Assembly (NCBI RefSeq): GCF_002891535.1
Contig: NZ_PDZR01000001.1
Span: forward strand, 682,001 to 746,000
Reading direction: 5' to 3'
From: Methylocella silvestris
Lineage (GTDB): Bacteria; Pseudomonadota; Alphaproteobacteria; Rhizobiales; Beijerinckiaceae
DNA: 64,000 nucleotides
The notes beneath the pieces were generated by a model. It saw only the letters and a program-made list of their open reading frames with translations, was not told the DNA's origin and ran no database searches. Each line of letters starts with the position of its first letter. Position 1 is the stretch's first letter. Both the position numbers and the translations under genes were made by a program. Shown here one piece after another: positions 18,408 through 42,551 of this stretch.

Positions 18408-19499
18408 ATGTTCGCTTATATCGCCCGCCGCATTCTGTTGATGATTCCGACGATCTTCGGAATCCTGGCGATTTCGTTCGTCATCGTGCAATTCGCGCCA
18501 GGCGGCCCGGTCGAGCGCATTCTGGCGCAATTGCAGGGTCTCGATAGCGGCGCGACGGCCCATTTCGGCGGCGGCGGCGGCGAGATCGGCGCCGGCAATG
18601 CGGGCGATTTTTCATCCAAATATCGCGGCGCGCAGGGGCTCGACCCGAAATTCATCGCCGAGCTCGAAAAGCAGTTCGGTTTCGACAAGCCTGCCTATGA
18701 GCGCTTCTTCATGATGCTGAAGAATTACGCTCTGTTCGACTTCGGCCGCTCCTATTTCCGCGACGAGCCGGTGCTGCAGCTGATCAAGGAAAAGCTGCCG
18801 GTCTCGATTTCGCTCGGCCTGTGGATGACGTTGCTTTCTTATGCGATCTCCATTCCGCTCGGCGTGCGAAAGGCGGTCTGCGACGGCTCGCGCTTCGATG
18901 TCTGGACCTCGGCGGTGGTCATCGTCGGCTATGCGATTCCGAGCTTTTTGTTCGCCATCCTGTTGATCGTTTTGTTTTGTGGCGGCTCGTTCTGGCAGCT
19001 CTTCCCGCTGCGGGGCCTCACCTCGGAAAACTTCGATCAGCTTTCGCTGTTTGGCAAGGTGAAGGATTATCTCTGGCATATTGCTCTGCCGGTGACGTCG
19101 CTGACGCTCGGCGCCTTCGCGACCTCGACCTTCCTCACCAAAAATTCCTTCCTCGACGAGATCCGCAAGCAATATGTGCTGACCGCCCGCATGAAGGGTT
19201 TGTCCGAGCGGCGCGTGCTTTATGGGCATGTCTTCCGCAACGCCATGATGATCGTCGTCGCCGGCTTTCCGGGCGCCTTTCTCGCCGCGTTTCTCGGCGG
19301 CTCGCTGCTGATCGAGACCATTTTCTCGCTGGACGGGCTCGGGCTCTTGTCCTTCGAATCGATCGTCAACCGCGACTATCCGGTCGTCTTCGCCAATCTC
19401 TACATCATGTCGCTGCTGGGCCTTGTGGTAAATCTCCTGTCGGATCTCACCTATACGTGGATCGATCCGCGGATCGATTTCTCGACGCGGGAGGTCTGA
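18408..19499 (+). CDS. yejB: peptide ABC transporter permease YejB, 363 aa
   Basis: Inner-membrane subunit of the Yej importer. It begins [20 protein letters not shown], the usual DppB-type N-terminus. Five to six transmembrane helices are visible, with the EAA loop [20 protein letters not shown] that contacts the ATPase. A glycine-rich insert ([13 protein letters not shown]) lies in the first periplasmic loop. It starts nine bases after yejA and ends one base before yejE. Confidence 0.93.
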
Positions 19500-19500
19500 C

Positions 19501-20694
19501 TTGGACGCGCCTGCGGTCGAAGCCCTGATGACGGGGGCGCCCCCCTTGCAGCGGGCGCGCCTCAGCCCCATCAACCAGCGCCGGCTGGCCCTGTTCAAGG
19601 CGCATCGGCGCGGCTATTGGTCGTTCTGGATTTTCCTGGTCCTGTTCGTCCTGTCGCTATTCGCCGAATTCATCGCAAACGACCGGCCGATCCTTGTCGT
19701 CTACAAGGGCGAATTGTTGTTTCCGGTGGCCATCGACTATCCGGAAGAAAAATTTGGCGGCTTCCTCGCCCGCACCGACTATCGCGATGCGGTGATCGCC
19801 GATGAGATCAAGGCGCATGGCTTCATGGTCTGGCCGCCGGTCCATTTTTCCTACCGCACCATCAACCGGCAATTGCCGACGCCGGCCCCATCGCCGCCGA
19901 CCTGGATGCTGAGCCGCGCGCAATGCGCCGCCGCCGCCGAACGCTTCAACAAGTCAGATCCAGGCGGAGGCTGCAACGCCATCGAGTGGAACTGGCTTGG
20001 CACCGACGATCAGGGACGCGACGTGCTGGCGCGGCTGATCTATGGCTTCCGCCTGTCGTTATTGTTCGGTCTGACGCTTGCGATCGTCTCGTCGGTGGTT
20101 GGCGTCGCCGCCGGCGCCTTGCAGGGATATTATGGCGGCTGGACCGATCTTTTGTTCCAGCGCTTCATCGAGGTCTGGTCCTCGCTGCCGCATCTCTATC
20201 TCCTGATCATCATCTCCTCGATCATCACGCCGAGCTTCTTCGTGCTGCTTGGCATCTTGCTTTTGTTTTCCTGGGTCTCTCTGGTCCATGTTGTCCGGGC
20301 GGAATGTCTGCGCACCCGCAACTTCGAATATGTCAACGCCGCGCGCGCGCTCGGCCTCAGCAATCCGGCGATCATCTGGCGCCATGTGCTGCCGAACGCC
20401 ATGGTCGCGACGCTGACTTTTTTGCCCTTCGTCCTCAACGGGTCGATCACGACGCTGACAGCGCTGGATTTTCTCGGCTTCGGCCTGCCGCCCGGCTCGC
20501 CCTCGCTCGGGGAGCTCCTTTTGCAGGGCAAATCCAATCTTCAGGCGCCTTGGCTTGGATTGACGGGGTTCATCGTGATCGCGCTGATGCTGTCGCTGCT
20601 CGTCTTCATCGGCGAGGCGGTGCGCGACGCTTTCGATCCCCGCAAGACGCTGCAATTGGGAAATGATAGGGTCGGGCAGATGGAGGCGGCATGA
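19501..20694 (+). CDS. yejE: peptide ABC transporter permease YejE, 397 aa
   Basis: Second membrane subunit. The start is TTG at 19501, directly after the yejB stop. The N-terminal helix (WSFWIFLVLFVLSLFAEFIA) is followed by a long periplasmic region, then the core GTDDQGRDVLARLIYGFRLS and the EAA loop EYVNAARALGLSNPAIIWRH. This long first loop is typical of YejE. Its stop overlaps the antitoxin start as ATGA. Confidence 0.93.
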   Translation: MDAPAVEALMTGAPPLQRARLSPINQRRLALFKAHRRGYWSFWIFLVLFVLSLFAEFIANDRPILVVYKGELLFPVAIDYPEEKFGGFLARTDYRDAVIADEIKAHGFMVWPPVHFSYRTINRQLPTPAPSPPTWMLSRAQCAAAAERFNKSDPGGGCNAIEWNWLGTDDQGRDVLARLIYGFRLSLLFGLTLAIVSSVVGVAAGALQGYYGGWTDLLFQRFIEVWSSLPHLYLLIIISSIITPSFFVLLGILLLFSWVSLVHVVRAECLRTRNFEYVNAARALGLSNPAIIWRHVLPNAMVATLTFLPFVLNGSITTLTALDFLGFGLPPGSPSLGELLLQGKSNLQAPWLGLTGFIVIALMLSLLVFIGEAVRDAFDPRKTLQLGNDRVGQMEAA

Positions 20695-20918
20695 ACAGGA
20701 TCGTCAAGGAGCATTATCCGGCGGAAAATCTCCCGGAGGATTTGCGCGCGGATTTGACGCCAGGATCGCAGGTGACCGTTACTGTCGTCGAGGAAGACGC
20801 GCCGCCGGAGAAGGTGATGTCTCTGGCAGAGCTTTTCGCTCTACGCCATCCTCCATTTCGCTCCGGCGAAGAGATTGACGCCGATCTTCGGCGTCAAAGA
20901 GACGAATGGGATGGCTGA
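20691..20918 (+). CDS. antitoxin of a PIN-type toxin-antitoxin pair, 75 aa
   Basis: The start overlaps the yejE stop (ATGA). The sequence MNRIVKEHYPAENLPEDLRA and VTVTVVEEDAPPEKVMSLAE resembles short VapB-like antitoxins of Hyphomicrobiales, and the C-terminal piece FRSGEEIDADLRRQRDEWDG is the usual toxin-binding, Asp/Arg-rich tail ending in DEWDG. It overlaps the toxin gene by eight bases. Such antitoxins neutralise the RNase and repress their operon. Here there is no separate promoter space, so transcription would come from the yej promoter. Confidence 0.75.
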   Translation: MNRIVKEHYPAENLPEDLRADLTPGSQVTVTVVEEDAPPEKVMSLAELFALRHPPFRSGEEIDADLRRQRDEWDG

Positions 20919-21387
20919 TATCGTGGCTCGACAGCGCGTTTATCTAGATCCGAACGTCTTTATTCGCGCGTTCGAAAGCCCCGAAGTGGAAGCAGCGCCG
21001 ATCAGAAGGATGTTGGAAGCGCTTCGTCACGACCCGAAGCGCGCTGTCACCAGCGAGCTCACTCTCGCAGAAGTATTGGCTCCGGCGCGAACCGGACCGG
21101 ATCTCCTTATCAAGCGTCGTTTCTATTTGGATTTGATCGTCTGGTCGGGTTTTATAGATTTGCTTCCAGTAACTCGTTCCATCCTGCTCGAAACGCCGGA
21201 TCTGCGGAAAGTCGCAAGGCATAGCTTGCCCGATGCAATACGCGTGGTCTCCGCGATACGAGCGGGCTGCAACTTCTTCATGTCCAATGATAAGGATATG
21301 AAGGCAAATAAGATTCCGCACGGCATGAGGGCTCTGTTGCCCGATTCCTCCGGCGTTGTGACCATCCTGGACGCCCTCCGTGCCTGA
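20911..21387 (+). CDS. PIN-domain toxin (VapC-like RNase), 158 aa
   Basis: A PIN fold with the four acidic positions visible: Asp in VYLDPNVFIRAF, Glu in TSELTLAEVLA, Asp in SLPDAIRVVSA, and Asp in FFMSNDKDMK. PIN toxins cleave tRNA or rRNA. ATG 20911 lies within the antitoxin's last codons; a TTG at 20875 would add twelve residues of no family resemblance. The gene ends eight bases inside yejF, so it is coupled to its neighbours on both sides. Confidence 0.85.
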   Translation: MADIVARQRVYLDPNVFIRAFESPEVEAAPIRRMLEALRHDPKRAVTSELTLAEVLAPARTGPDLLIKRRFYLDLIVWSGFIDLLPVTRSILLETPDLRKVARHSLPDAIRVVSAIRAGCNFFMSNDKDMKANKIPHGMRALLPDSSGVVTILDALRA

Positions 21388-23005
21388 CGCCCCCCTTCTC
21401 GACATTTGCGATCTCTCCGTCTCTTTCCGCGCTGGCGCTACTGCCATGCGAGCAGTCGACGGCGTCTCTTTTGCGCTTGAGCGCGGCCGCACGCTGGCGC
21501 TCGTCGGCGAGTCGGGCTCGGGCAAATCGGTCACAGCGCTCTCGATCCTGCGGCTGCTGGCGCCAGGAGCCGAGACGCAGGGGAAGGCGCTGTTCGACGG
21601 CGAGGATCTGCTGACGGCGTCCGAGGAGCGGCTTCGCGCCATCAGGGGCGCGCGGATCACCATGGTGTTCCAGGAGCCGATGACATCGCTCAATCCGCTG
21701 CACAGCATCGAAAAGCAGATTGGTGAAATTCTGGAACTGCACGGCGCCCACGGCGCCGAAAAAATCCGTGCGCGGGTGGTGGAGCTTCTCGGCGAGGTCG
21801 GCATTCCCGATCCCGCTGCGCGGCTTGGCGCCTATCCGCACCAGCTGTCGGGCGGTCAGCGCCAGCGCGTCATGATCGCCATGGCGCTCGCCAACCGGCC
21901 TGATCTCTTCATCGCCGACGAGCCGACCACCGCGCTCGACGTGACGGTGCAAGCGCAGATCCTCGACCTTTTGAAGCGGTTGCAGGCGCGCCATGGCATG
22001 GCGATGCTGTTCATCACCCATGACCTCAATATCGTGCGCAAAATCGCCGACGACGTCGCCGTGATGCAGAAGGGGCGCATCGTCGAGACCGGGCCGGTCG
22101 CGTCGATCTTTTCCGCGCCGCGCCATCCCTATACCTGCGCGCTGCTCGCCGCAGAGCCCAAAGGAGCTCCGCCGCCGTTCAACGCCGCGGCAAAACCCAT
22201 CGTCAGCGCCGACAACATCAAGGTCTGGTTTCCGATCAGGCGCGGCTTCTTTCGCCGCACCATCGGCTATGTCAAGGCGGTCGACGGCGTCAGCGTCACC
22301 GTGCGTGAAGGCGAGACCGTCGGCGTCGTCGGCGAATCGGGCTCCGGCAAGACGACGCTTGGCCTCGCCTTGCTGCGGCTGATTCGCTCGGAGGGCGCCA
22401 TCGTCTTCCTCGGGCAACGCATCGACGGGCTGCGCTTCAAGGAGCTGCGGCCGATACGGCGCGACATGCAGATTGTGTTTCAGGATCCCTATGGGTCGCT
22501 GTCGCCGCGCCTGCCCGTCGCCGATATCGTCGCCGAAGGCCTCGGCGTGCAGGACAAGAGCCTCAGCTACAGCCGGAAGCGGGAGATTGTCGCCCGCGCG
22601 CTCGCCGACACAGGCCTCGATCCGGCGGCGATGGATCGCTATCCGCATGAATTTTCAGGCGGCCAGCGTCAGCGAATCGCCATCGCCAGAGCCATGGTGC
22701 TTGAGCCGAAATTCATCGTTCTCGACGAGCCGACTTCCGCGCTCGATATGTCGGTGCAGGCGCAAATCGTCGATCTCTTGCGCGACCTCCAGCGCCGCCG
22801 CGGCCTCGCCTTTCTGTTCATCAGCCATGATCTGCGCGTCGTACGCGCGCTGGCGAGCGAAATCATCGTCATGCGTGGCGGCAAGCTGGTCGAAGCCGGT
22901 CCCGCCGCCGAATTGCTGGCGCATCCAAAGAGCGACTATACCCGCGCCTTGTTCGCCGCTGCCTTCGACATGCGGGCGGAAGAGGGCGCGGCGATCCCGG
23001 TTTGA
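21380..23005 (+). CDS. yejF: peptide ABC transporter ATP-binding protein YejF, 541 aa
   Basis: Two fused ABC ATPase domains drive YejABE transport. The first (residues about 5-260) has Walker A GESGSGKS, signature LSGGQRQR and Walker B LFIADEPT. The second (about 280-535) has GESGSGKT, FSGGQRQR and FIVLDEPT. Each is followed by an oligopeptide-transporter C-terminal extension. GTG start within the toxin 3' end. With yejA, B and E it completes the importer. Length fits the family. Confidence 0.95.
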   Translation: MPDAPLLDICDLSVSFRAGATAMRAVDGVSFALERGRTLALVGESGSGKSVTALSILRLLAPGAETQGKALFDGEDLLTASEERLRAIRGARITMVFQEPMTSLNPLHSIEKQIGEILELHGAHGAEKIRARVVELLGEVGIPDPAARLGAYPHQLSGGQRQRVMIAMALANRPDLFIADEPTTALDVTVQAQILDLLKRLQARHGMAMLFITHDLNIVRKIADDVAVMQKGRIVETGPVASIFSAPRHPYTCALLAAEPKGAPPPFNAAAKPIVSADNIKVWFPIRRGFFRRTIGYVKAVDGVSVTVREGETVGVVGESGSGKTTLGLALLRLIRSEGAIVFLGQRIDGLRFKELRPIRRDMQIVFQDPYGSLSPRLPVADIVAEGLGVQDKSLSYSRKREIVARALADTGLDPAAMDRYPHEFSGGQRQRIAIARAMVLEPKFIVLDEPTSALDMSVQAQIVDLLRDLQRRRGLAFLFISHDLRVVRALASEIIVMRGGKLVEAGPAAELLAHPKSDYTRALFAAAFDMRAEEGAAIPV

Positions 23006-33794: not shown

Positions 33795-34742
33795 ATTCTC
33801 AGTTCGAGCCGCCCCACGGTCCAGGACCTCAAACTCAGAATCGGGACGCGGGGCAGCCCTTTGGCGCTGGCCCAGGCGCGCGAGCTGCGGCGCCGTCTCG
33901 CCGCCGCGCATGGTGTCGCGGAAGAGGCGCTCGACATCGTCGTCATCAAGACGACAGGCGATATCATCCTCGATCGCGCCCTGAGCGAGGCGGGCGGCAA
34001 GGGTCTTTTCACCAAGGAGCTCGACCTTGCGCTCATGCGCGGCGAGATCGGGATCGCCGTCCATTCGGCCAAGGATTTGCCGACGCAGCTGCCCGACGAG
34101 ATCGCCATTCTCGGCTATCTGCCGCGCGAGGATGTGCGCGACGCCTGGATCTCACCTCACGCGCAGCATCCGCTTGGCCTTGCCGCTGGCAGCGTCGTCG
34201 GCACGGCCTCGCTGCGTCGCGGCGCGATCGTGCGGCGGCTGCGGCCGGACCTTAATGTCGTGCTTTTACGGGGCAATGTCGAAACGCGGCTCGCCAAGCT
34301 CGCGGGCGGCGAGGTTGACGCGACTCTGCTCGCTCTCGCCGGACTGAAGCGGCTTGGCCTCGAGGGCAAGGCGAGCGCATTGCTGAACCCGGAAGAATTT
34401 GTGCCGGCGGCGGGGCAGGGGGCGATCGCGATCACCGCGCGGACGGGTGATGACTCCACGCGCGCGCTGATCGCGCCGATCCTCGATCAGGACACGGGGC
34501 TCGCGCTCGCAGCCGAACGCGCGTTCCTTGCCGTTCTCGATGGTTCTTGCAAAACGCCGATCGGCGCTTACGCGCGGCTGGAGGGCGGGCGCCTCATCTT
34601 CCACGCGCTTGTGCTGAAGCCGGACGGCTCGGCCTGTTTCGAGGCGCGTGTCAGCGGCGAGCCAGGCGAGGCCATAGCGCTCGGCGAAGGCGCCGGGCGC
34701 GATCTCATCTCGCGCATCCCGCCCGATCTGTTCGAGGATTGA
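33795..34742 (+). CDS. hemC: porphobilinogen deaminase (hydroxymethylbilane synthase), about 315 aa
   Basis: Polymerises four porphobilinogens to hydroxymethylbilane in heme synthesis. Seen are LRIGTRGSPLALAQARELRR, GLFTKELDLALMRGEIGIAV, HSAKDLPTQLP, GTASLRRGA, the substrate-binding RGNVETRLAKL and the cofactor cysteine in LDGSCKTPIGAY. The start is the puzzle. TTG 33861 would cut off the conserved IGTRGSP motif, and the only in-frame ATG upstream (33753) is followed by a TAA at 33771. The best remaining choice is ATT at 33795, with AAGGA eight bases ahead. Confidence 0.85.
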   Translation: MLSSSRPTVQDLKLRIGTRGSPLALAQARELRRRLAAAHGVAEEALDIVVIKTTGDIILDRALSEAGGKGLFTKELDLALMRGEIGIAVHSAKDLPTQLPDEIAILGYLPREDVRDAWISPHAQHPLGLAAGSVVGTASLRRGAIVRRLRPDLNVVLLRGNVETRLAKLAGGEVDATLLALAGLKRLGLEGKASALLNPEEFVPAAGQGAIAITARTGDDSTRALIAPILDQDTGLALAAERAFLAVLDGSCKTPIGAYARLEGGRLIFHALVLKPDGSACFEARVSGEPGEAIALGEGAGRDLISRIPPDLFED

Positions 34743-34744
34743 TC

Positions 34745-35506
34745 ATGCTGGTGTTGCTCACCCGAGCCTTGGACGAGGCGATGCGCACGGCGGCCAAGCT
34801 GACCGCGCTCGGCCATCACGCGATTCTCTCGCCAGTGTTCGAAATGGCGCCAACCGGTGCGGAATGGCCGCAAAGCGTCGTCGATGGCGCACTCGCCACC
34901 AGCACACAGGCGTTCGAGCTTTTGTCCCAGTCGGGAGACCGGCCATCGCCGGAGGCGCGGCGTCTGACGCCGCTGCATGTCGTCGGCGAGCGCACCAAAG
35001 CGGCTGCGCGCGAACGCGGATTTGAAGGACGAACCGTCGTCGCTCCGGACGCCAAAATTCTCGCCTCGAGCCTGATCGGCGCGCTCGCCGGCAGGACGCC
35101 GTCGAGGTTCGTTTATCTCGCCGGCCGCGACCGCAAGCCGGACCTCGAGGCGGCGCTGAGCGATGCGGGCCACAGTGTCGACGTCGTCGAGGTTTATGCG
35201 GCGCAGGCGCTGGACGAGCTCGATGCGGAAGCCGCGGCTCTGATCGAGGCGGGGCAGATCGGCGCGATCCTGCATTATTCCCGACGTAGTGCGGATATTT
35301 TCCTGCGCCTCGTGGCAGAGGCGGGGCTCGACATATCGCGCGTCGCGCATATTGCGATTTCGGCTGATGCCGCGACGCCCTTGAAGGCGGCGCGCTTCGC
35401 ATCCGTCCACATTGCCGAAATTCCAAACGAGCAGGGGATGCTCGACGCCCTGCAAGGGCTCGCCCATCAAGAAAGTGTTGATCGCGCCGACTATGTGAAG
35501 TCTTGA
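34745..35506 (+). CDS. hemD: uroporphyrinogen-III synthase, 253 aa
   Basis: Closes and inverts ring D of hydroxymethylbilane. This poorly conserved family is recognised by its position two bases after hemC and by VLLTRALDEAMRTAAKLTAL, LLSQSGDRPSP, LHVVGERTKAAARERGF and the second-domain ILHYSRRSADIFLRLV. ATG 34745. Two-domain HUP-like fold of the usual length. Confidence 0.88.
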   Translation: MLVLLTRALDEAMRTAAKLTALGHHAILSPVFEMAPTGAEWPQSVVDGALATSTQAFELLSQSGDRPSPEARRLTPLHVVGERTKAAARERGFEGRTVVAPDAKILASSLIGALAGRTPSRFVYLAGRDRKPDLEAALSDAGHSVDVVEVYAAQALDELDAEAAALIEAGQIGAILHYSRRSADIFLRLVAEAGLDISRVAHIAISADAATPLKAARFASVHIAEIPNEQGMLDALQGLAHQESVDRADYVKS

Positions 35507-35537
35507 TGTGCGCCTTTTTGCAACCCATCATGAAACC

Positions 35538-36842
35538 ATGAATAATGCCGCAAAGGCGCCTCTTCCCGCAACGCTTGCCGCCGCGGAGGAAGATGACGCG
35601 CCGATACAAAAGGGGAGGAAGACGGTTCGATCGCTTTGGGTCGGATGCGCCTTTGCGCTTCTCGTCGCCTCGCTGTGGGCCTTCGCCGCGACGGCGGCGC
35701 CGCAGACCGGGGGCGCCGCCGCGCCGCTCAATGTCAAGATTGGCGTTATTCGCGCCATCCATTCGCGCGACACGATTTCGATTCTCGACATCCCGGCCGA
35801 AGACGATGGCGTCGCCGGCGCAAGGCTCGCGATTGAAGACAACAACACCACCGGAAAATTCCTCAACCAGACATTCGAGATCGCCGACGTCAAGCTGAAG
35901 GAGGGCGAGGATCCAGTCGTCGCGCTGAACGCGCTTGTCGATCAGGGAATTGGCCTAATCCTTGCCGACGTCCCGGCCGCGCAGCTTCTTGCGCTCGCCG
36001 ACGCCGCGCGCGGCAAGAATGTCCTGTTGTTCAATGTCGGCGCGCCGGAGGATTCGCTGCGCGAGGAGGATTGCCGCGCCAATGTGATCCATGTCGGCCC
36101 GACCCATTCGATGCTGGCCGATGGGCTGGCGCAATATCTTGTCTGGAAGCGTTGGCCGCGCTGGTTCCTGATCAAGGGCTCGCATCCGCAGGACGAGCTT
36201 TTCGCAGCCGCGCTGCGTCGTTCGGCGAAAAAATTCGGCGCCAAGATCGTCGAAGAGCGCGTCTACGAAGATACCGAGGGCGGGCGCCGCTCCGATTCCG
36301 GCAGCGTGCAGACGCAGCGCCTGATCCCGACCGCAACGCAGAGCGCCCCGGCCTATGACGTGCTTGTCGCCGCCGATGAATCCGACGTTTTCGCGGGCTA
36401 TCTGCCCTATCGCAATTACGATCCGCGCCCCGTCGTCGGCTCGGCCGGCCTGAAGCCGACGAGCTGGGACGCGACCCATGAACAATGGGGCGCCATTCAA
36501 TTGCAGAACCGATTCTACAAGCTGGCTTCGCGGCGGATGAACGAACGCGACAATCAGGCCTGGGTCGCCGCCCGCATCATCGGCGAGGCGGCGACCCGCA
36601 CGGGCTCGAATGATCCGAAAACGCTGCGCGACTATATCGTCGGCCCTGAGTTTTCCATCGCCGCCTTCAAGGGGCAGAAGCAAACCTTGCGGACGTGGAA
36701 TCAACAGCTGCGCCAGCCGATCCTGCTTGGCGACGGGCGCATGATCGTGTCCGTTTCGCCGCAGGAAGGTTTTCTGCACCAGACGTCGGAACTCGACACC
36801 CTCGGCCTCGATCAACCGGAAACAAAATGCAAATTGCGCTGA
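35538..36842 (+). CDS. ABC substrate-binding protein of PQQ-dependent alcohol dehydrogenase system, 434 aa
   Basis: The periplasmic binding protein has an N-terminal membrane anchor/signal (SLWVGCAFALLVASLWAFAA after a charged 35-residue cytoplasmic start). The body follows the TIGR03863-type pattern: VIRAIHSRDTISILDIPAED, ARLAIEDNNTTGKFLNQTFE, LFNVGAPEDSLREEDCRANV and HVGPTHSMLADGLAQYLVWK. Family members sit beside PQQ-dependent alcohol dehydrogenases; the analogous lutA of Methylobacterium serves lanthanide uptake. It overlaps the next gene by 16 bases. The substrate is unproven. Confidence 0.82.
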   Translation: MNNAAKAPLPATLAAAEEDDAPIQKGRKTVRSLWVGCAFALLVASLWAFAATAAPQTGGAAAPLNVKIGVIRAIHSRDTISILDIPAEDDGVAGARLAIEDNNTTGKFLNQTFEIADVKLKEGEDPVVALNALVDQGIGLILADVPAAQLLALADAARGKNVLLFNVGAPEDSLREEDCRANVIHVGPTHSMLADGLAQYLVWKRWPRWFLIKGSHPQDELFAAALRRSAKKFGAKIVEERVYEDTEGGRRSDSGSVQTQRLIPTATQSAPAYDVLVAADESDVFAGYLPYRNYDPRPVVGSAGLKPTSWDATHEQWGAIQLQNRFYKLASRRMNERDNQAWVAARIIGEAATRTGSNDPKTLRDYIVGPEFSIAAFKGQKQTLRTWNQQLRQPILLGDGRMIVSVSPQEGFLHQTSELDTLGLDQPETKCKLR

Positions 36843-37813
36843 AATTTTCCGCGAGGGCGGCTGTCGTCTTAGCGCTGTCGCTCGGCTTCGCGCGCTCTCC
36901 CGCGACGGCGGCGACGGCCTATGTCTCGAATGAAAAGGGCAACTCCATCACGGTCATCGACGATGACAAGCTTGCCGTCACAGACACCGTCAAGGTCGGT
37001 CGGCGTCCGCGCGGAATCGTCCTCAACAAGGACAACACCCAGCTGTTCATCTGCGCCGGCGATGACGACACGATCCAGATTCTTGATCTCAAGACTTTGA
37101 AGATTGTCGGCGATCTGCCGTCGGGCGCCGACCCCGAATTGCTGATCCTGAGCCCGGACGGCGCGCTTCTTTATGTCGCGAACGAGAACAATAATCTTGT
37201 CACCGTGATCGAGGTCGCGACGCGCAAGGTCATCGAGCAAATTCCGGTTGGAGTCGAGCCGGAGGGCATGGCGCTGAGCCCCGACGGGAGGATTCTCGTC
37301 AACACCTCAGAGACGACCAATATGGCCCACATGATCGACACGGCGACGCGCAAGATCTTCGCCAATGTCCTCGTCGATGCGCGGCCGCGCTCTGCCCAGT
37401 TCACGCCGGACGGCAAGGAGCTGTGGGTTTCGGCGGAGGTCGGCGGCACGGTGAGCGTGATAAGCGTCGCCGACGCCAAGGTGTTGCAGAAAATCACCTT
37501 CGATATTCCCGGTCTCGCCAAGGAGGCGATCCAGCCTGTCGGCATCCGTTTCAGCCAGGACGGCGCGAAGGCCTTTGTCGCGCTCGGGCCGGCAAATCGC
37601 GTCGCCGTCATCGACGTCGCCTCGCGCAAGGTCGCAAAATATCTGTTGGTCGGCCAACGCGTCTGGCAACTCGCCTTCACGCCCGACTACAGCCATCTTT
37701 ACGCGACCAACGGCGTCTCGAACGACGTTTCCGTGATTGACCCGGCGAGCCTCAAGGTCGTGAAATCGATTCCGGTCGGTCCGTTCCCCTGGGGCGTCGC
37801 CATCGCGCCATAG
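36827..37813 (+). CDS. PQQ-catabolism-associated YVTN beta-propeller protein, 328 aa
   Basis: MQIALKFSARAAVVLALSLG begins a signal peptide ending near ATAA. The mature protein is a chain of YVTN-type repeats (TAYVSNEKGNSITVIDDDKL, LLYVANENNNLVTVIEVATR, HLYATNGVSNDVSVIDPASL), predicted to form a seven-bladed periplasmic propeller. This is the TIGR03866-type protein found in PQQ-alcohol-dehydrogenase ABC clusters. It probably partners the binding protein upstream; its precise action is unknown. Confidence 0.85.
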   Translation: MQIALKFSARAAVVLALSLGFARSPATAATAYVSNEKGNSITVIDDDKLAVTDTVKVGRRPRGIVLNKDNTQLFICAGDDDTIQILDLKTLKIVGDLPSGADPELLILSPDGALLYVANENNNLVTVIEVATRKVIEQIPVGVEPEGMALSPDGRILVNTSETTNMAHMIDTATRKIFANVLVDARPRSAQFTPDGKELWVSAEVGGTVSVISVADAKVLQKITFDIPGLAKEAIQPVGIRFSQDGAKAFVALGPANRVAVIDVASRKVAKYLLVGQRVWQLAFTPDYSHLYATNGVSNDVSVIDPASLKVVKSIPVGPFPWGVAIAP

Positions 37814-37866
37814 CGCTTGTCGCAAGCGCGGCCTGTTGGAAAGATCATCCGTGACGAGGCCTCAGC

Positions 37867-38637
37867 TTGATTGATTCTTCCAAAGACCACGCGCTCGAAG
37901 CTGCGCTGAAAATCGACCGGGTCAGCCATTTCTATGGCAAGCGCAAGGCGCTCGACGATGTCTCCTTTGAGGTGCGTCCGGCGAGTTTCACCGTGCTGCT
38001 TGGGTTGAACGGCGCCGGCAAGAGCACGCTGTTTTCCCTGATCACGCGGCTGTTTGGCGTGCGCTCCGGCGCGATTTCGATTTTCGGCTTCGATGTCGCG
38101 CGAACGCCGGGCGAGGCGCTGCGCCGGCTTGGCGTAGTGTTCCAGGCGCGAACGCTCGACCTCGATCTCTCCATCGCGCAAAATCTTGCCTATCATGCGG
38201 CGCTGCACGGCATTGGAGACGCGACGGCGAAAGCGCGCGCCGCCGATGTCCTCGCCAAGGTCGACATGCTTGATCGGCTCAACGACAAGGCCCGCGCGCT
38301 GTCCGGAGGGCAGATGCGCCGCGTCGAGATCGCTCGCGCCCTGCTGCACCGGCCGCGGATGCTGCTGCTCGACGAACCGACTGTCGGCCTCGACATCAAG
38401 GCCCGCGCGGACATCCTCGCGCATGTGCGCAATCTCGTCGCGACCGAGGGAATTGGCGTATTGTGGGCGACCCATCTCATCGACGAGATCCTGCCCGGCG
38501 ACAATGTCGTTGTGTTGCATCGCGGCAAATTGCTCGACGCGGGCAAGGTCGAGGAGGTCTGCGCGCGGGCCGGCTCGCCTGACATGACCGCGGCGTTCAA
38601 CCGTCTGACCGGCGAAGCCGCTACGGAGGCGCAGTGA
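37867..38637 (+). CDS. ABC transporter ATPase of the PQQ-alcohol dehydrogenase-linked system, 256 aa
   Basis: Single nucleotide-binding domain: Walker A LGLNGAGKSTLF, Q-loop VFQARTLD, signature LSGGQMRR, Walker B MLLLDEPTVGLD and the switch His in LWATHLID. It is of the DrrA/CcmA exporter-like type (TIGR03864-like). TTG start at 37867. It lies 50 bases after the propeller gene and one base before the permease, to which it must couple. Confidence 0.88.
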   Translation: MIDSSKDHALEAALKIDRVSHFYGKRKALDDVSFEVRPASFTVLLGLNGAGKSTLFSLITRLFGVRSGAISIFGFDVARTPGEALRRLGVVFQARTLDLDLSIAQNLAYHAALHGIGDATAKARAADVLAKVDMLDRLNDKARALSGGQMRRVEIARALLHRPRMLLLDEPTVGLDIKARADILAHVRNLVATEGIGVLWATHLIDEILPGDNVVVLHRGKLLDAGKVEEVCARAGSPDMTAAFNRLTGEAATEAQ

Positions 38638-38638
38638 C

Positions 38639-39481
38639 ATGAGCGTTCAGTCCGCCGCGCCCGTCGAACCACGCGGCTTCAGCCTCGTCCAATATGCCGT
38701 CTGCCTCAAGGGGATCGTCTGGCGCGAGGCGCTACGGTTCCTGCATCAGCGCGAGCGCTTCGTCTCGGCGCTGGTGCGCCCGCTGGTCTGGCTGTTCATT
38801 TTCGCCGCGGGCTTTCGCTCGGTGCTCGGCGTCTCGATCATTCCGCCCTACGACACCTATGTGCTCTACGACGTCTACATCACGCCGGGACTCATCGCGA
38901 TGATCCAGCTTTTTAACGGGATGCAATCGTCGCTGTCGATGGTTTATGATCGGGAAATGGGCAATATGCGGACGCTGCTGGTCAGCCCGCTGCCGCGTTG
39001 GTTCCTCTTGACGTCAAAGCTTGTCGCCGGCGCATCGGTGTCGATCTTGCAGGTCTACGCCTTCCTGTTGATCGCCTGGTTCTGGGAGATCGAGCCGCCA
39101 ACGCTTTGGGGCTATCTGACCATTTTGCCCGCGTTGATTTTGTCGGGCTTGATGTTCGGCGCGCTCGGGATGCTGCTGTCCTCGCTGATCCGGCAGCTGG
39201 AGAATTTCGCGGGCGTGATGAATTTCGTCATCTTCCCGATGTTCTTCGCCTCAAGCGCGCTCTATCCGTTGTGGCGCGTCAGGGAGGGCAGCCCGTGGCT
39301 CGCCTTCGTTTGCGAAATCAACCCGTTTACGCATGCCGTCGAATTGATCCGCTTCGCCTTCTGGGGACAGGTCAATCTTACGTCATTGGCGGTGGTCGGG
39401 GGATGCGCCGCGCTATTCCTCGGCGCCGCCATCATCGCCTATGATCCCTCGCGCGGCATGTTGATGCGGCGCGAGGGTTAG
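38639..39481 (+). CDS. ABC-2-type permease of the PQQ-alcohol dehydrogenase-linked system, 280 aa
   Basis: Membrane subunit with six hydrophobic segments, e.g. PLVWLFIFAAGFRSVLGVSI, LVAGASVSILQVYAFLLIAW and NFAGVMNFVIFPMFFASSAL. The ABC-2 motif is seen at LSMVYDREMGNMRTLLVSPL and the end SSALYPLWRVREGSPWLAFV. TIGR03861-type permease. With the ATPase it is an exporter-like module paired with a periplasmic binding protein, an unusual combination typical of this cluster. Confidence 0.87.
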   Translation: MSVQSAAPVEPRGFSLVQYAVCLKGIVWREALRFLHQRERFVSALVRPLVWLFIFAAGFRSVLGVSIIPPYDTYVLYDVYITPGLIAMIQLFNGMQSSLSMVYDREMGNMRTLLVSPLPRWFLLTSKLVAGASVSILQVYAFLLIAWFWEIEPPTLWGYLTILPALILSGLMFGALGMLLSSLIRQLENFAGVMNFVIFPMFFASSALYPLWRVREGSPWLAFVCEINPFTHAVELIRFAFWGQVNLTSLAVVGGCAALFLGAAIIAYDPSRGMLMRREG

Positions 39482-39496
39482 ATGATGACGGAAAGC

Positions 39497-39895
39497 TTAT
39501 TTCTTCTTTCCGTCGGCGTCGAATTGCGACAGATAGGCGACGACATTGTCGCGGTCGTCTTCTTTCGGGAGGCCGGCGAAGATCATCTTGGTGCCGGGAA
39601 CCACGGCCTTCGGGTTGGTCAGCCAGGCGTGCAGCTTTTCCGAATCCCAGGTGACGGCGTAAGCCTTTAGGCCATCGGAATAGGAATATCCCGGAGATCC
39701 CGCGCCAGCGACGCGGCCGACGATGCCATTGAGCTCAGGACCGACGAAATTCTTGGCCCCTTCGCCAATCTTGTGGCACACGGCGCATTTCTGCTTGAAG
39801 AGAGTTTCCCCGGCCGCCGCGTCAGCGGCATAAGCGGCCGCCGTGGGGCCCATGAAAGCAAGCGCCGCGATGATCGAAGCATATCTGAAATTCAT
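39497..39895 (-). CDS. soluble periplasmic class I cytochrome c, 132 aa
   Basis: Signal peptide MNFRYASIIAALAFMGPTAA followed by a heme site CAVCHKIGEG, a central SDGLKAYAVTWDSEKLHAWL and the Met ligand in GTKMIFAGLPKEDDR. This is the cytochrome c2/c550 fold. GGAAGGA precedes the ATG. It is convergent with the permease gene (15 bases between stops). As the gene sits in an alcohol-dehydrogenase-linked cluster, it may take electrons from such an enzyme, but that is inference; a housekeeping c2 is equally likely. Confidence 0.92.
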   Translation of the reverse strand: MNFRYASIIAALAFMGPTAAAYAADAAAGETLFKQKCAVCHKIGEGAKNFVGPELNGIVGRVAGAGSPGYSYSDGLKAYAVTWDSEKLHAWLTNPKAVVPGTKMIFAGLPKEDDRDNVVAYLSQFDADGKKK

Positions 39896-40057: not shown

Positions 40058-41113
40058 TTGAGCGCAGGAAAACGCCTAATCGGGAGAAACGTTTCATTCA
40101 ACAGGCGGAGCGCGCACAAGGGCGGGCTTGCCGCCGCAGCGGTCATTTGTCTCACCCTGATGATCGGCCTTTGCGGCCGGGCGGAGGCCGCCGACACGCT
40201 CCGTCTTGGCGTACAGAAGACCGGCACCTTCGCCTGGGAGCTCGCGGTCATCAAGGCCGAAAAGCTGGACGCCAAGGCGAATCTTGACCTCGTCGTCACT
40301 GAGCTTGCCTCGACGGAAGCGGGAAAGATCGCGCTGCTCGGCGGTTCGGTCGACCTCATCATCAGCGACTGGCTGTGGGTCGCGCGCGAGCGTGGCCTCG
40401 AAACCAATCTCGTTTTCTATCCCTACTCGACGGCGCTCGGCGCCTTGATGGTTCCGGGAGATTCCGCGGCGCAAAAACTGGACGATCTGCGCGGCAAGAC
40501 CCTTGGGGTCGCCGGCGGGCCGATCGATAAAAGCTGGCTTCTCCTGCGCGCCCTTGTGCAGCGCGACGGACTGGATCTCAAAGCGCGCGCGCGGGTGGTG
40601 TTCGGCGCGCCGGCCCTGCTTTATGAAAAAGCCGTCGCCGGCGAGCTCGACGCCAATCTGACTTTCTGGAATTACGCTGTCGCGCTCGAGTCGCGCGGCT
40701 TTCGCCGGCTGATCGGCATGGACGAGGTCGAGCGGAGGCTCGGCGCGAAAGGGCCGCTGGCGATGACGGGCTATGTCTTCGACGAAAGCCTCGCCAAGAC
40801 CCATGGCGACGCGCTCGCGCGATTCTTCCAGGTCACGCATCAGGCGCGGGAGCGGCTGGCCAGCTCGGACGCGGATTGGCAGAGGATCGGAAAAGAATTG
40901 GGAGTTACCGACCCCAAGGAGCTGGCGCTTTACCGGCAACGCTATGTCGACGGTTTTCCGAAGCGCCCGGTCTCGGACGATGAAGCGGACGCCGCCACCC
41001 TCTATGCGATCGTGCGCGAGATCGGCGGTCCGGAGCTCGTCGGCGCCGCGACGACGCTGAACCCGGGCGTCTTCTACAAGGGCGCGGGCCAGCGAACGCC
41101 GGCGGACCGCTGA
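40058..41113 (+). CDS. NMT1/SsuA-type ABC substrate-binding protein, 351 aa
   Basis: A binding protein for a small organic or inorganic anion-like substrate. An N-terminal basic region and hydrophobic signal (GLAAAAVICLTLMIGLCGRA) end in AEAAD. The mature part starts TLRLGVQKTGTFAWELAVIK, continues GGSVDLIISDWLWVARERGL and KTLGVAGGPIDKSWLLLRAL. The TTG start at 40058 is uncertain. Followed by a permease (three bases) and an ATPase, so it forms a full importer. The substrate is unknown; its position next to the PQQ-linked cluster suggests a role in C1/alcohol metabolism. Confidence 0.82.
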   Translation: MSAGKRLIGRNVSFNRRSAHKGGLAAAAVICLTLMIGLCGRAEAADTLRLGVQKTGTFAWELAVIKAEKLDAKANLDLVVTELASTEAGKIALLGGSVDLIISDWLWVARERGLETNLVFYPYSTALGALMVPGDSAAQKLDDLRGKTLGVAGGPIDKSWLLLRALVQRDGLDLKARARVVFGAPALLYEKAVAGELDANLTFWNYAVALESRGFRRLIGMDEVERRLGAKGPLAMTGYVFDESLAKTHGDALARFFQVTHQARERLASSDADWQRIGKELGVTDPKELALYRQRYVDGFPKRPVSDDEADAATLYAIVREIGGPELVGAATTLNPGVFYKGAGQRTPADR

Positions 41114-41116
41114 GCC

Positions 41117-41857
41117 GTGCCAGTTCGCCTCCTGTCCTTCCTGCTGCTGCTGCTGCTTTGGGAGGCGGCGTCGACGATCGCCGCTTCGCGCCTCCTGCCG
41201 TCGCCGCAGGCCGTGCTGTCCGTCGTCGGCGCGGAGGCGGCGTCCGGCGCACTGGCCTTCAATCTTGCGGCGACGCTTGCGCGCGTCGTCGCCGCCTTCA
41301 TTCTCGCCATGGCGGTCGGAATGGCCCTTGGCGTCGCCATGGGACGCAGCAAGGCCGTCGACCGTTTTTGCGATCCCTGGCTGATCGTGCTGTTGAACCT
41401 TCCGGCGCTCGTCGTCATCGTGCTCGCCTATATTTGGATCGGCCTGAATGAGGTCGCGGCGATCGGAGCAGTGGCGCTGAACAAGCTGCCGAACACGACG
41501 GCGACGGTTCGCGAGGGCGCGCGGGCGCTCGACCGCGGCCTCGACGAGGTCGCCGAGATCTTCGCCATGCCGCTGAAGATCCGCATCTTCGACGTCCTGC
41601 TGCCGCAGCTTGCGCCCTATCTTGCCGCCTCGATGCGATCCGGCCTGTCGCTGGTGTGGAAGATCGTGCTGGTGGTCGAACTGCTCGGCCGCTCGAACGG
41701 GATCGGCTTTGAGATCGGCACCGCCTTCCAGCTCTTCGACGTGACGCGCCTGCTCGCCTATGCGCTGCCCTTCGTCGCCATCATGCTGGCGATCGAGACT
41801 TTCGTGGTGCAGCCGATCGAGCGGCGCGTCTCGCGCTGGCGACCGCAGCATGCTTGA
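41117..41857 (+). CDS. ABC transporter permease (SsuC/TauC type), 246 aa
   Basis: Six predicted transmembrane segments (RLLSFLLLLLLWEAASTIAA, VVAAFILAMAVGMALGVAMG, LIVLLNLPALVVIVLAYIWI) and an EAA-like loop at DEVAEIFAMPLKIRIFDVLL followed by LPQLAPYLAASMRSGLSLVW. GTG start three bases after the binding protein; eight-base overlap with the ATPase gene. Partner of 40058 and 41850. Confidence 0.88.
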   Translation: MPVRLLSFLLLLLLWEAASTIAASRLLPSPQAVLSVVGAEAASGALAFNLAATLARVVAAFILAMAVGMALGVAMGRSKAVDRFCDPWLIVLLNLPALVVIVLAYIWIGLNEVAAIGAVALNKLPNTTATVREGARALDRGLDEVAEIFAMPLKIRIFDVLLPQLAPYLAASMRSGLSLVWKIVLVVELLGRSNGIGFEIGTAFQLFDVTRLLAYALPFVAIMLAIETFVVQPIERRVSRWRPQHA

Positions 41858-42551
41858 CGTCAAGGTCACGCGCAAGGCGCTGCGCACCGCCGCGGGGCAG
41901 AGGCGGACCATTCTGGGCGAGGTGGCCTTTGGCCTCAAATCCGGCGAGGTCGCGGCCGTGCTTGGGCCGTCTGGCTGCGGCAAGACCACCTTGCTGCGGA
42001 TCATCGCCGGCCTCGACCGAGATTTCGAGGGCGAGGTCATGCTGCCGTCGCCGCGTAAAATCGGCATGGTTTTTCAAGAGCCGCGGCTGCTTCCGTGGCG
42101 GAGCGTGCGGCAGAATCTGCTGCTGGCCGGCGGTGTCGCCGGCCCCGTGCTTGATTCGATCGTCGCCGCGCTCGGGCTCGCCGCCCATCTTGATCATTAT
42201 CCCGGTGAATTGTCGCTTGGGCTCGCCCGCCGCGTCGCGATCGCGCGGGCTTTTGCGATCAGCCCGACGCTTCTCCTGCTTGACGAGCCTTTTGTTTCCC
42301 TCGACTCTGCCCTGGCGCTGCGCCTTCGCGCCGAACTTGTCGCCCTTGTGGAGGCGCAAAGGACGACGACGCTGATTGTGACCCATGACATCGAGGAGGC
42401 TGTGGCGCTTGCCGATCGCATCATCATTCTCTCCTCGCAACCGGGCCAGATGGTTGCCGACAAATTCATCGAAACGCCGCGCCTTGCCATGACGCCGGCG
42501 GCTGCGGCGCAGGCCAAAATCGAGATCGAGGCGCTGATCGCTGAAGCGTGA
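41850..42551 (+). CDS. ABC transporter ATPase (SsuB/TauB type), 233 aa
   Basis: Walker [14 protein letters not shown]-loop [12 protein letters not shown], Walker [13 protein letters not shown] and switch [13 protein letters not shown] are intact. The signature, usually LSGGM/Q, reads LSLGLARR, a clear deviation at the glycine pair that contacts ATP. It still has RVAIARA right after. ATG 41850 lies inside the permease 3' end. Completes the three-gene importer. Confidence 0.87.

Follow-up and report, generated by a model that had tools for sequence, protein, structure and literature searches.

A predicted PedA1A2BC/LutABEF-type lanthanide transporter operon in Methylocella silvestris and its dispersed partner genes

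Described lanthanide transporters and the Methylocella operon

ATP-binding cassette (ABC) systems of the PedA1A2BC/LutABEF type have been published as lanthanide transporters of Pseudomonas putida and Methylorubrum extorquens, and the pedA1A2BC genes of the former are reported to be similar to the transporter of the latter (PMC6839425; lut: PMC7391723). A further member of this family is an operon in Methylocella silvestris, at positions 35538–39481 of a 64,000-nucleotide stretch (the window) that covers 682001–746000 of contig C11 in a genome of 4.28 Mb. Its products are referred to as A1, A2, B and C, for PedA1/LutA-, PedA2/LutB-, PedB/LutE- and PedC/LutF-like proteins, with BC for the ATPase and permease together; G numbers denote genomes (G000 being the source genome), C followed by a number contigs, and L numbers loci. 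In the reading that we consider probable, the operon encodes a lanthanide ABC transporter that imports the metal into the cytoplasm and whose BC pair serves two A1A2 pairs, one of them encoded elsewhere in the genome.

In P. putida, deletion of pedA1A2BC is reported to raise the need for lanthanum (La) 100-fold and to leave calcium-dependent growth unchanged (PMC6839425). Mutants of M. extorquens in lutE or lutF do not grow with La, those in lutA or lutB grow slowly, and La deposits remain periplasmic in lutA, lutE and lutF mutants (PMC7391723); the ABC transporter is reported to be needed for cytoplasmic lanthanide uptake in this species (PMC7391723, PMC6839425). Within the genus Methylocella, lanthanides repress an xoxF1 gene set of M. 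silvestris BL2 that includes the “ABC-transporter” protein Msil_3146, a YVTN protein and a TonB receptor, and XoxF5 and LanM (reported there as Msil_0271) rise with lanthanides (PMC9291206). By gene order and the available text of that report, Msil_3146 is an A1 homologue.

In the window, a periplasmic type I substrate-binding protein, A1 (35538–36842; TIGR03863, Peripla_BP_6), is followed on the forward strand by a secreted seven-bladed YVTN beta-propeller, A2 (36827–37813; TIGR03866), an ABC ATPase, B (37867–38637; TIGR03864), and an ABC-2 type permease, C (38639–39481; TIGR03861, PF01061). Each scores above the cut-off of its own NCBIfam family: A1 with 480.6 bits against 413.6, A2 with 499.7 against 287.3, B with 338.8 against 302.25, and C, as PedC, with 405.3 against 241.35. 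By these scores the four genes form a complete PedA1A2BC/LutABEF-type operon, and a chance resemblance was rejected, since four neighbouring genes each exceed a family-specific curated cut-off. A preliminary description of this DNA had named the same four components, with positions correct to the base, and had assigned them to the lut/ped lanthanide systems, which agrees with the family models and with the gene set of P. putida (PMC6839425). A search of C against the sequences of the PDB gave no match at 1e-3, which is uninformative. The A1 open reading frame spans 35508–36842, and its ATG at 35538 was confirmed as the start codon. Because A1 and A2 overlap by 16 bases, B and C are 1 base apart and the upstream hemD stops at 35506, with the A1 ATG 31 bases further on, A1 to C are likely read as one transcript; a promoter scan gave two overlapping weak matches that span the A1 start (35517–35546) and were not used as evidence.

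The family labels also suggest other functions. A transporter for alcohols or other carbon substrates would suit the “alcohol ABC transporter” label of TIGR03861, but a periplasmic enzyme needs no alcohol import, and the P. putida mutants are reported to grow on oxidised intermediates with or without La (PMC6839425). An exporter that carries a cytoplasmic product to the periplasm, either pyrroloquinoline quinone (PQQ) or a lanthanide chelator, would be in keeping with the strong link to PQQ enzymes described below and with the scores of C and B to the drug exporter families DrrB and DrrA, both of which lie below the NCBIfam cut-offs. The operon, however, includes a binding protein, and growth by the calcium- and PQQ-dependent enzyme PedE is reported to be unchanged without pedA1A2BC (PMC6839425); therefore, PQQ still reaches the periplasm in the mutant. 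Export is thus very improbable and alcohol transport hardly credible, and both PQQ export and alcohol transport were rejected as contradicted by the P. putida data (PMC6839425).

The window shares with P. putida KT2440 four genes of the same functions, as all four family models indicate, and differs from it in that the operon does not stand beside its dehydrogenases and that the source genome has a second A1A2 pair as well as a LutH-like TonB receptor, of which P. putida is reported to have no close homologue (PMC6839425). In the lut cluster of M. extorquens (lutABEF with lutCDGH and lanM), lutA, lutB, lutE and lutF correspond to A1, A2, B and C; lutC and lutD lie between lutB and lutE in the strain AM1 order, as taken from the gene letters and locus tags (PMC7391723), whereas only 53 bases separate A2 from B in the window. 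No counterpart of the TonB receptor gene lutH is present at the window site, where the neighbours are hemD, a cytochrome gene and an NMT1-type transporter, and the TonB receptor of the source genome lies instead beside xoxF1 on another contig. The xoxF1 cluster of M. silvestris BL2 (Msil_3146–3149, YVTN, TonB) has the gene content of an island on contig C25 of the source genome (L012); its proteins are reported as LutBAH homologues, and the available text of the report does not mention a complete operon near dnaA (PMC9291206), which is the setting of the operon in the window, with DnaA encoded at about 29.8–31.3 kb.

The absence of an adjacent dehydrogenase or TonB receptor had led the preliminary description to propose a split or reduced version of the system. 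The absence itself is borne out, as the nearest PQQ-enzyme match found on C11 ends at 510189, about 207 kb away, and the TonB receptor found sits on another contig. The system is split, in the sense that its parts are dispersed; the idea of a reduced system was rejected because all four genes of the P. putida transporter are present. A binding protein paired with an exporter-like permease had also been called mechanistically odd, and this pairing is the normal make-up of the PedA1A2BC/LutABEF family, not a peculiarity of the window.

Dispersed partners in the genome and across the family

Xox-type and Mxa-type dehydrogenase genes and a TonB receptor, which the preliminary description had proposed to look for elsewhere, are all found in the genome. 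The island L012 carries, on one strand and in an operon-like run, xoxF1, a moxJ/ankyrin gene, a cytochrome c gene, A1 and A2, with the TonB receptor and a histidine kinase divergent from this run and a response regulator on its far side. Its A1 is 42% identical to that of the window and its A2 53%. The dehydrogenase has 7o6z as its closest solved sequence and owes the name xoxF1 to its gene context, which is as in M. silvestris (PMC9291206). The LutH-like TonB receptor is 36% identical to a receptor beside the A1A2BC locus of another genus (L097). The genome as a whole gives a single match to C and, above cut-off, a single B and two copies each of A1 and A2; a second permease for the xoxF1-linked pair was rejected on the single PedC match and the single PedB above cut-off. 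In the congener G040, the island is 83–97% identical and the four proteins of the window operon 95–98%. As a separate observation, the MoxJ-type binding protein of the island (L012:10082–11875) is fused to ankyrin repeats in a protein of 597 residues, an unusual extension of XoxJ, and the fusion is kept in the xoxF1 islands L103–L106, L109, L110, L113 and L120, with alignments of at least 559 residues.

The genome yielded six genes for PQQ-type enzymes, and four of the dehydrogenases exceed the cut-off of the methanol/ethanol family. Apart from xoxF1, they comprise XoxF5 on C20, accompanied by a MoxJ-like gene and a cytochrome with four cysteines; MxaF on C8, with MxaJ, named by its WDFAG motif and its neighbours; a second XoxF5-like enzyme on C3, 62.5% identical to XoxF5; and more distant family members on C75 and C11. 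The motif WDYDG is found in XoxF1, XoxF5 and the C3 enzyme, and the second Asp is described as the mark of lanthanide enzymes (PMC9291206).

Co-occurrence was surveyed in 149 genomes of the same family, with counts at E <= 1e-60; the counts given for BC rest on C. PedC is present in 71 genomes, A1 in 70, A2 in 70 and a PQQ alcohol dehydrogenase in 76. PedC and the dehydrogenase occur together in 70 genomes, PedC alone in one (G057), the dehydrogenase alone in six and neither in 72 (Fisher p 5e-34, a value that overstates independence because the genomes are related). The preliminary description had named closest homologues in a lineage devoid of PQQ enzymes as a finding that would refute its reading, and these counts do not refute it. 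Copies of A1 and C stand at 1:1 in 52 genomes, 2:1 in 15, 2:2 in two, 0:1 in two (G003 and G045) and 1:0 in one (G136, 88% complete); two permeases to one A1 occur in none of the 149 genomes, and A1 and A2 copy numbers are equal in each of 70 genomes.

Of the 87 A1 matches, 61 have a PedC within 12 kb on their own contig, and the other 26 are remote from it. Flanks of up to about 10 kb on each side were obtained for 25 of these remote A1 genes (all but that of G105), and a PQQ dehydrogenase is present in the flank of 19 of the 26; by our own estimate, a given gene would have one within 10 kb by chance in about 4% of cases, as no genome of about 4 Mb has more than 8 dehydrogenases among the matches listed. 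For the remote A1 of G021, G125 and G136, the contig stops at an xoxF1-type moxJ gene. Across 54 loci around A1 or C (L083–L136), all 29 dehydrogenase reading frames of at least 300 residues have the second Asp, and 23 have D-x-D-G, the signature of XoxF/PedH-type enzymes, the alignment of the distant L128 and L132 being unsure. Over ten whole genomes, this signature is found in 7 of the 26 dehydrogenases that could be read; the ten are a non-random set made up of the exceptions and G000, and one further dehydrogenase in them was unreadable.

The A1 tree, built from 38 of 39 A1 stretches (L121 was left out and the later loci L123–L136 were not added), places the nine XoxF1-linked proteins in one clade (100/100), and likewise five remote XoxF5-linked (95/90), four PedH/ExaF-like-linked (100/100) and three DH_C75-like-linked proteins (100/100). 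The designation PedH/ExaF-like goes back to L117, for which the best match among solved sequences is 6zcw/6zcv, “quinoprotein ethanol dehydrogenase”, which we take to be PedH; the other three are alike in motif and similarity. By this tree, the A1 clades go with the type of dehydrogenase. The window A1 forms a clade (96/92) with copies that adjoin BC and that in two genomes, G043 and G148, adjoin xoxF5 as well, and XoxF5 is for this reason probably its old partner.

An ABC importer downstream of the operon, encoded at 40058–42551 on the forward strand, tracks the lanthanide transporter system. It comprises an NMT1/SsuA-like substrate-binding protein (40058–41113; PF09084), an adjoining SsuC-like permease (BPD_transp_1; 41117–41857; PF00528) and an SsuB-like ABC ATPase (41760–42551; PF00005). 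At E <= 1e-40, relatives of the binding protein are present in 64 of the 149 genomes, 59 of which also have PedC (Fisher p 3e-23, again from related and not independent genomes), and at least 42 of the 65 copies have PedC or a listed dehydrogenase no more than 10 kb away. The surroundings of the best A1 relatives, 80 named loci that are mostly from Bradyrhizobium and not independent, hold a complete A1A2BC set in 71 cases, a MoxJ5-like gene in 56, the NMT1-type binding protein with its permease in 50, a TonB receptor like that of L012 in 47 and an XoxF5-like enzyme in 23; MxaF is the best match in none of the 80. The binding protein reaches only 23.5 bits in the NCBIfam SsuA family, which has a cut-off of 163.5, and a sulfonate-uptake label for these genes would rest on a weak match. 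Genes named ssuABCD in strain RH AL1 respond to lanthanides and are interpreted there as sulfonate and oxidative-stress genes (PMC10848612). In the available text of two other reports, sulfonate appears only as part of a dye name, with an unrelated ABC transporter behind formate dehydrogenase (PMC10728633), or sulfonate uptake and xoxF are treated in separate sections (PMC6754898). Searches limited to open-licence papers brought up no link of the PedA1A2BC/xoxF system to an NMT1-type importer.

Proposed import, enzyme loading and sharing of one motor

According to the import reading, the lanthanide, probably in chelated form, would cross the outer membrane through the LutH-like TonB receptor whose gene adjoins xoxF1. 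The Venus-flytrap binding protein A1 and the propeller A2, which has a conserved, strongly charged face, would together hand it to the permease C, and B would drive this ABC-2 permease so that the lanthanide reaches the cytoplasm, a transport that would support the periplasmic lanthanide-dependent PQQ dehydrogenases. The single BC motor would serve both the A1A2 of the xoxF1 operon and that of the window, the near relatives of which adjoin xoxF5 in other genera. The two pairs would then act as alternative receptor modules, with the xoxF1-linked one and its TonB receptor as the set for scarcity, because lanthanides repress it in M. silvestris (PMC9291206).

Enzyme linkage of A1A2 could also point to a different task. 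In the maturation of N2O reductase, NosFY is thought to power NosD, a protein with a right-handed beta-helix fold. BC could, in a similar manner, be a motor for periplasmic loading, with the A1A2 pairs as chaperones, one per dehydrogenase type, that insert the lanthanide or PQQ-lanthanide into the apo-enzyme. The window and NosDFY-type systems have an ATPase and an ABC-2 permease in common, the permease family is exporter-like, and the loading idea would predict the observed gene linkage: extra A1A2 pairs stay with the dehydrogenase and not with BC (the 19 of 26 remote A1 genes mentioned above), and the A1 clades are sorted by enzyme, although co-regulation, or inheritance of the islands as a unit, would explain this linkage just as well. 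The similarity to NosDFY does not extend to the other two proteins, as A2 is predicted to be a seven-bladed propeller and A1 a type I binding protein, and two genomes (G003 and G045) hold BC without A1. The known lanthanide enzymes are periplasmic, and Wehrmann et al. question what cytoplasmic lanthanide uptake is good for; the same work reports, however, that purified apo-PedH is activated by lanthanides in vitro (PMC6839425). The present data favour import because, in M. extorquens, La accumulates in the periplasm of ABC mutants and the ABC genes are reported to be required for cytoplasmic uptake (PMC7391723, PMC6839425); the loading motor, the chief alternative, is an unlikely explanation.

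Several observations weigh against import by a lanthanide transporter with enzyme-linked modules, beginning with the exporter scores of C and B given above. G057 (L130), 99% complete, holds A1A2BC and has no PQQ alcohol dehydrogenase match at 1e-40. Among the six dehydrogenase-only genomes, a D-x-D-G enzyme is found only in G102 (84% complete); the second Asp is replaced by Thr in G093 and by Ser in G077, and the distant enzymes of G067, G096 and G109 (26–33% identity) have an Asp at the second position without the Gly. The second Asp alone is weak and non-specific evidence, for which D-x-D-G is better, because 20 of the 26 readable dehydrogenases of the ten genomes have it. The remote A1 genes of G007, G038 and G108, on short or broken contigs, show no flanking dehydrogenase. 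The A2 tree gives the same groups as that of A1, but with a weak XoxF1 clade (56/56), and clades sorted by enzyme could arise simply from islands inherited as a unit; less trivial is that A1A2 keeps its linkage to the enzyme but not that to the motor. The NMT1-type protein is missing from 12 of the 71 PedC genomes, and 5 of the 64 genomes that have it lack PedC. In genus g2, A1, B and C follow each other without A2 between them (L093); A2 is elsewhere (e.g., G080:C7:210709 and G044:C9:24521), adjoins a second, distant YVTN propeller and shows no dehydrogenase beside it (L133, L134).

To these belong G003 and G045, which keep BC at the hemC-hemD position (L127, L100) without A1, an arrangement that is unexpected if A1 is an obligate receptor of an importer. 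Both have dehydrogenases with WDYDG, of the XoxF/PedH type, and no remnant of A1 or A2 is present beside BC; a divergent A1 was rejected, as a search at E <= 0.001 with a profile of the 38 A1 proteins gave no match. Related states occur in G061, where BC occupies the hem position with no A1A2 next to it and the two A1A2 pairs of the genome both adjoin xoxF1 genes, and in G123, where a truncated A2 (about 120 of 328 residues; L098:11258–11617) lies beside BC and an intact A1A2 pair adjoins xoxF5. BC without A1 fits the genetics of M. extorquens because lutE and lutF mutants fail to grow with La and lutA and lutB mutants are merely slow (PMC7391723).

A broader proposal, which we put forward tentatively and do not favour over its opposite, is that one BC per cell drives exchangeable A1A2 modules, each for one class of dehydrogenase (XoxF1, XoxF5, PedH/ExaF-like or DH_C75-like) and conserved with the enzyme and not with the motor. 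A1A2 would then be an enzyme-specific device for delivery or loading, and the NMT1-type importer a further member of the lanthanide system. Searches limited to open-licence papers did not bring up an arrangement of one motor with several enzyme-linked A1A2 modules. The wider issue is how cells deal with lanthanides on the way from the outer membrane to the periplasmic enzymes, and why a periplasmic cofactor needs a cytoplasmic route. Since a member of the genus is amenable to genetics, a genome that combines a single BC with two A1A2 pairs would allow the two roles to be told apart by genetic means, and the linked NMT1-type importer is a concrete new candidate gene set.

Predicted structures and neighbouring genes

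The AlphaFold2 model of A1 has a predicted local distance difference test (pLDDT) score of 84.0 and matches 3n0w best among VIA matches (Z 34.6, 332 residues aligned, root-mean-square deviation (rmsd) 2.6). That of A2, with a pLDDT of 93.5, is a seven-bladed propeller of 28 strands, with 1l0q as its best VIA match (Z 45.6, 293 aligned, rmsd 1.4). These matches name common folds as predicted and say nothing of the ligand. In A2, the D-A loops have oppositely charged x-P-x motifs (R60/R62, D102/E104, E144/E146 and R186/R188) and the B-C loops have Glu36, 120, 162 and 204; none of these charged residues varies among the 37 aligned A2 proteins. The set is not present in two other YVTN propellers of the genome, one of which has Lys for R60 and the other gaps at some positions. 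The D-A and B-C loops lie on one face of a propeller, and the conserved face of A2 is plausibly a putative site for a trivalent metal or metal chelate, or a contact face for a protein.

The cytochrome c gene that the preliminary description had noticed at the end of the cluster (39497–39895, reverse strand; PF00034) scores 35.3 bits in the Pfam Cytochrom_C family, above the cut-off of 21.3. Its best NCBIfam model is CycA c-550, with 134.6 bits against a cut-off of 240, so the exact name does not apply; the protein is a divergent, c550-like class I cytochrome c and a candidate electron carrier downstream of XoxG. Such a gene follows C in four of five congeners, the exception being L085, at whose operon it is not present, and also in L088, L091, L100, L127 and L138; in L095, it precedes B.

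Upstream, the open reading frames of hemC and hemD (33861–35506, forward strand) were assigned through PF02602 for HemD and by place for HemC. Their order with A1A2BC is kept in five of five congeners, and the two genes are probably a mere position marker for the operon. Farther upstream in the window, before treS and dnaA, genes at 18408–23005 score to the microcin C/peptide ABC transporter Yej; the YejF-like ATPase lies below its cut-off, and YejB and a second permease lie above theirs.

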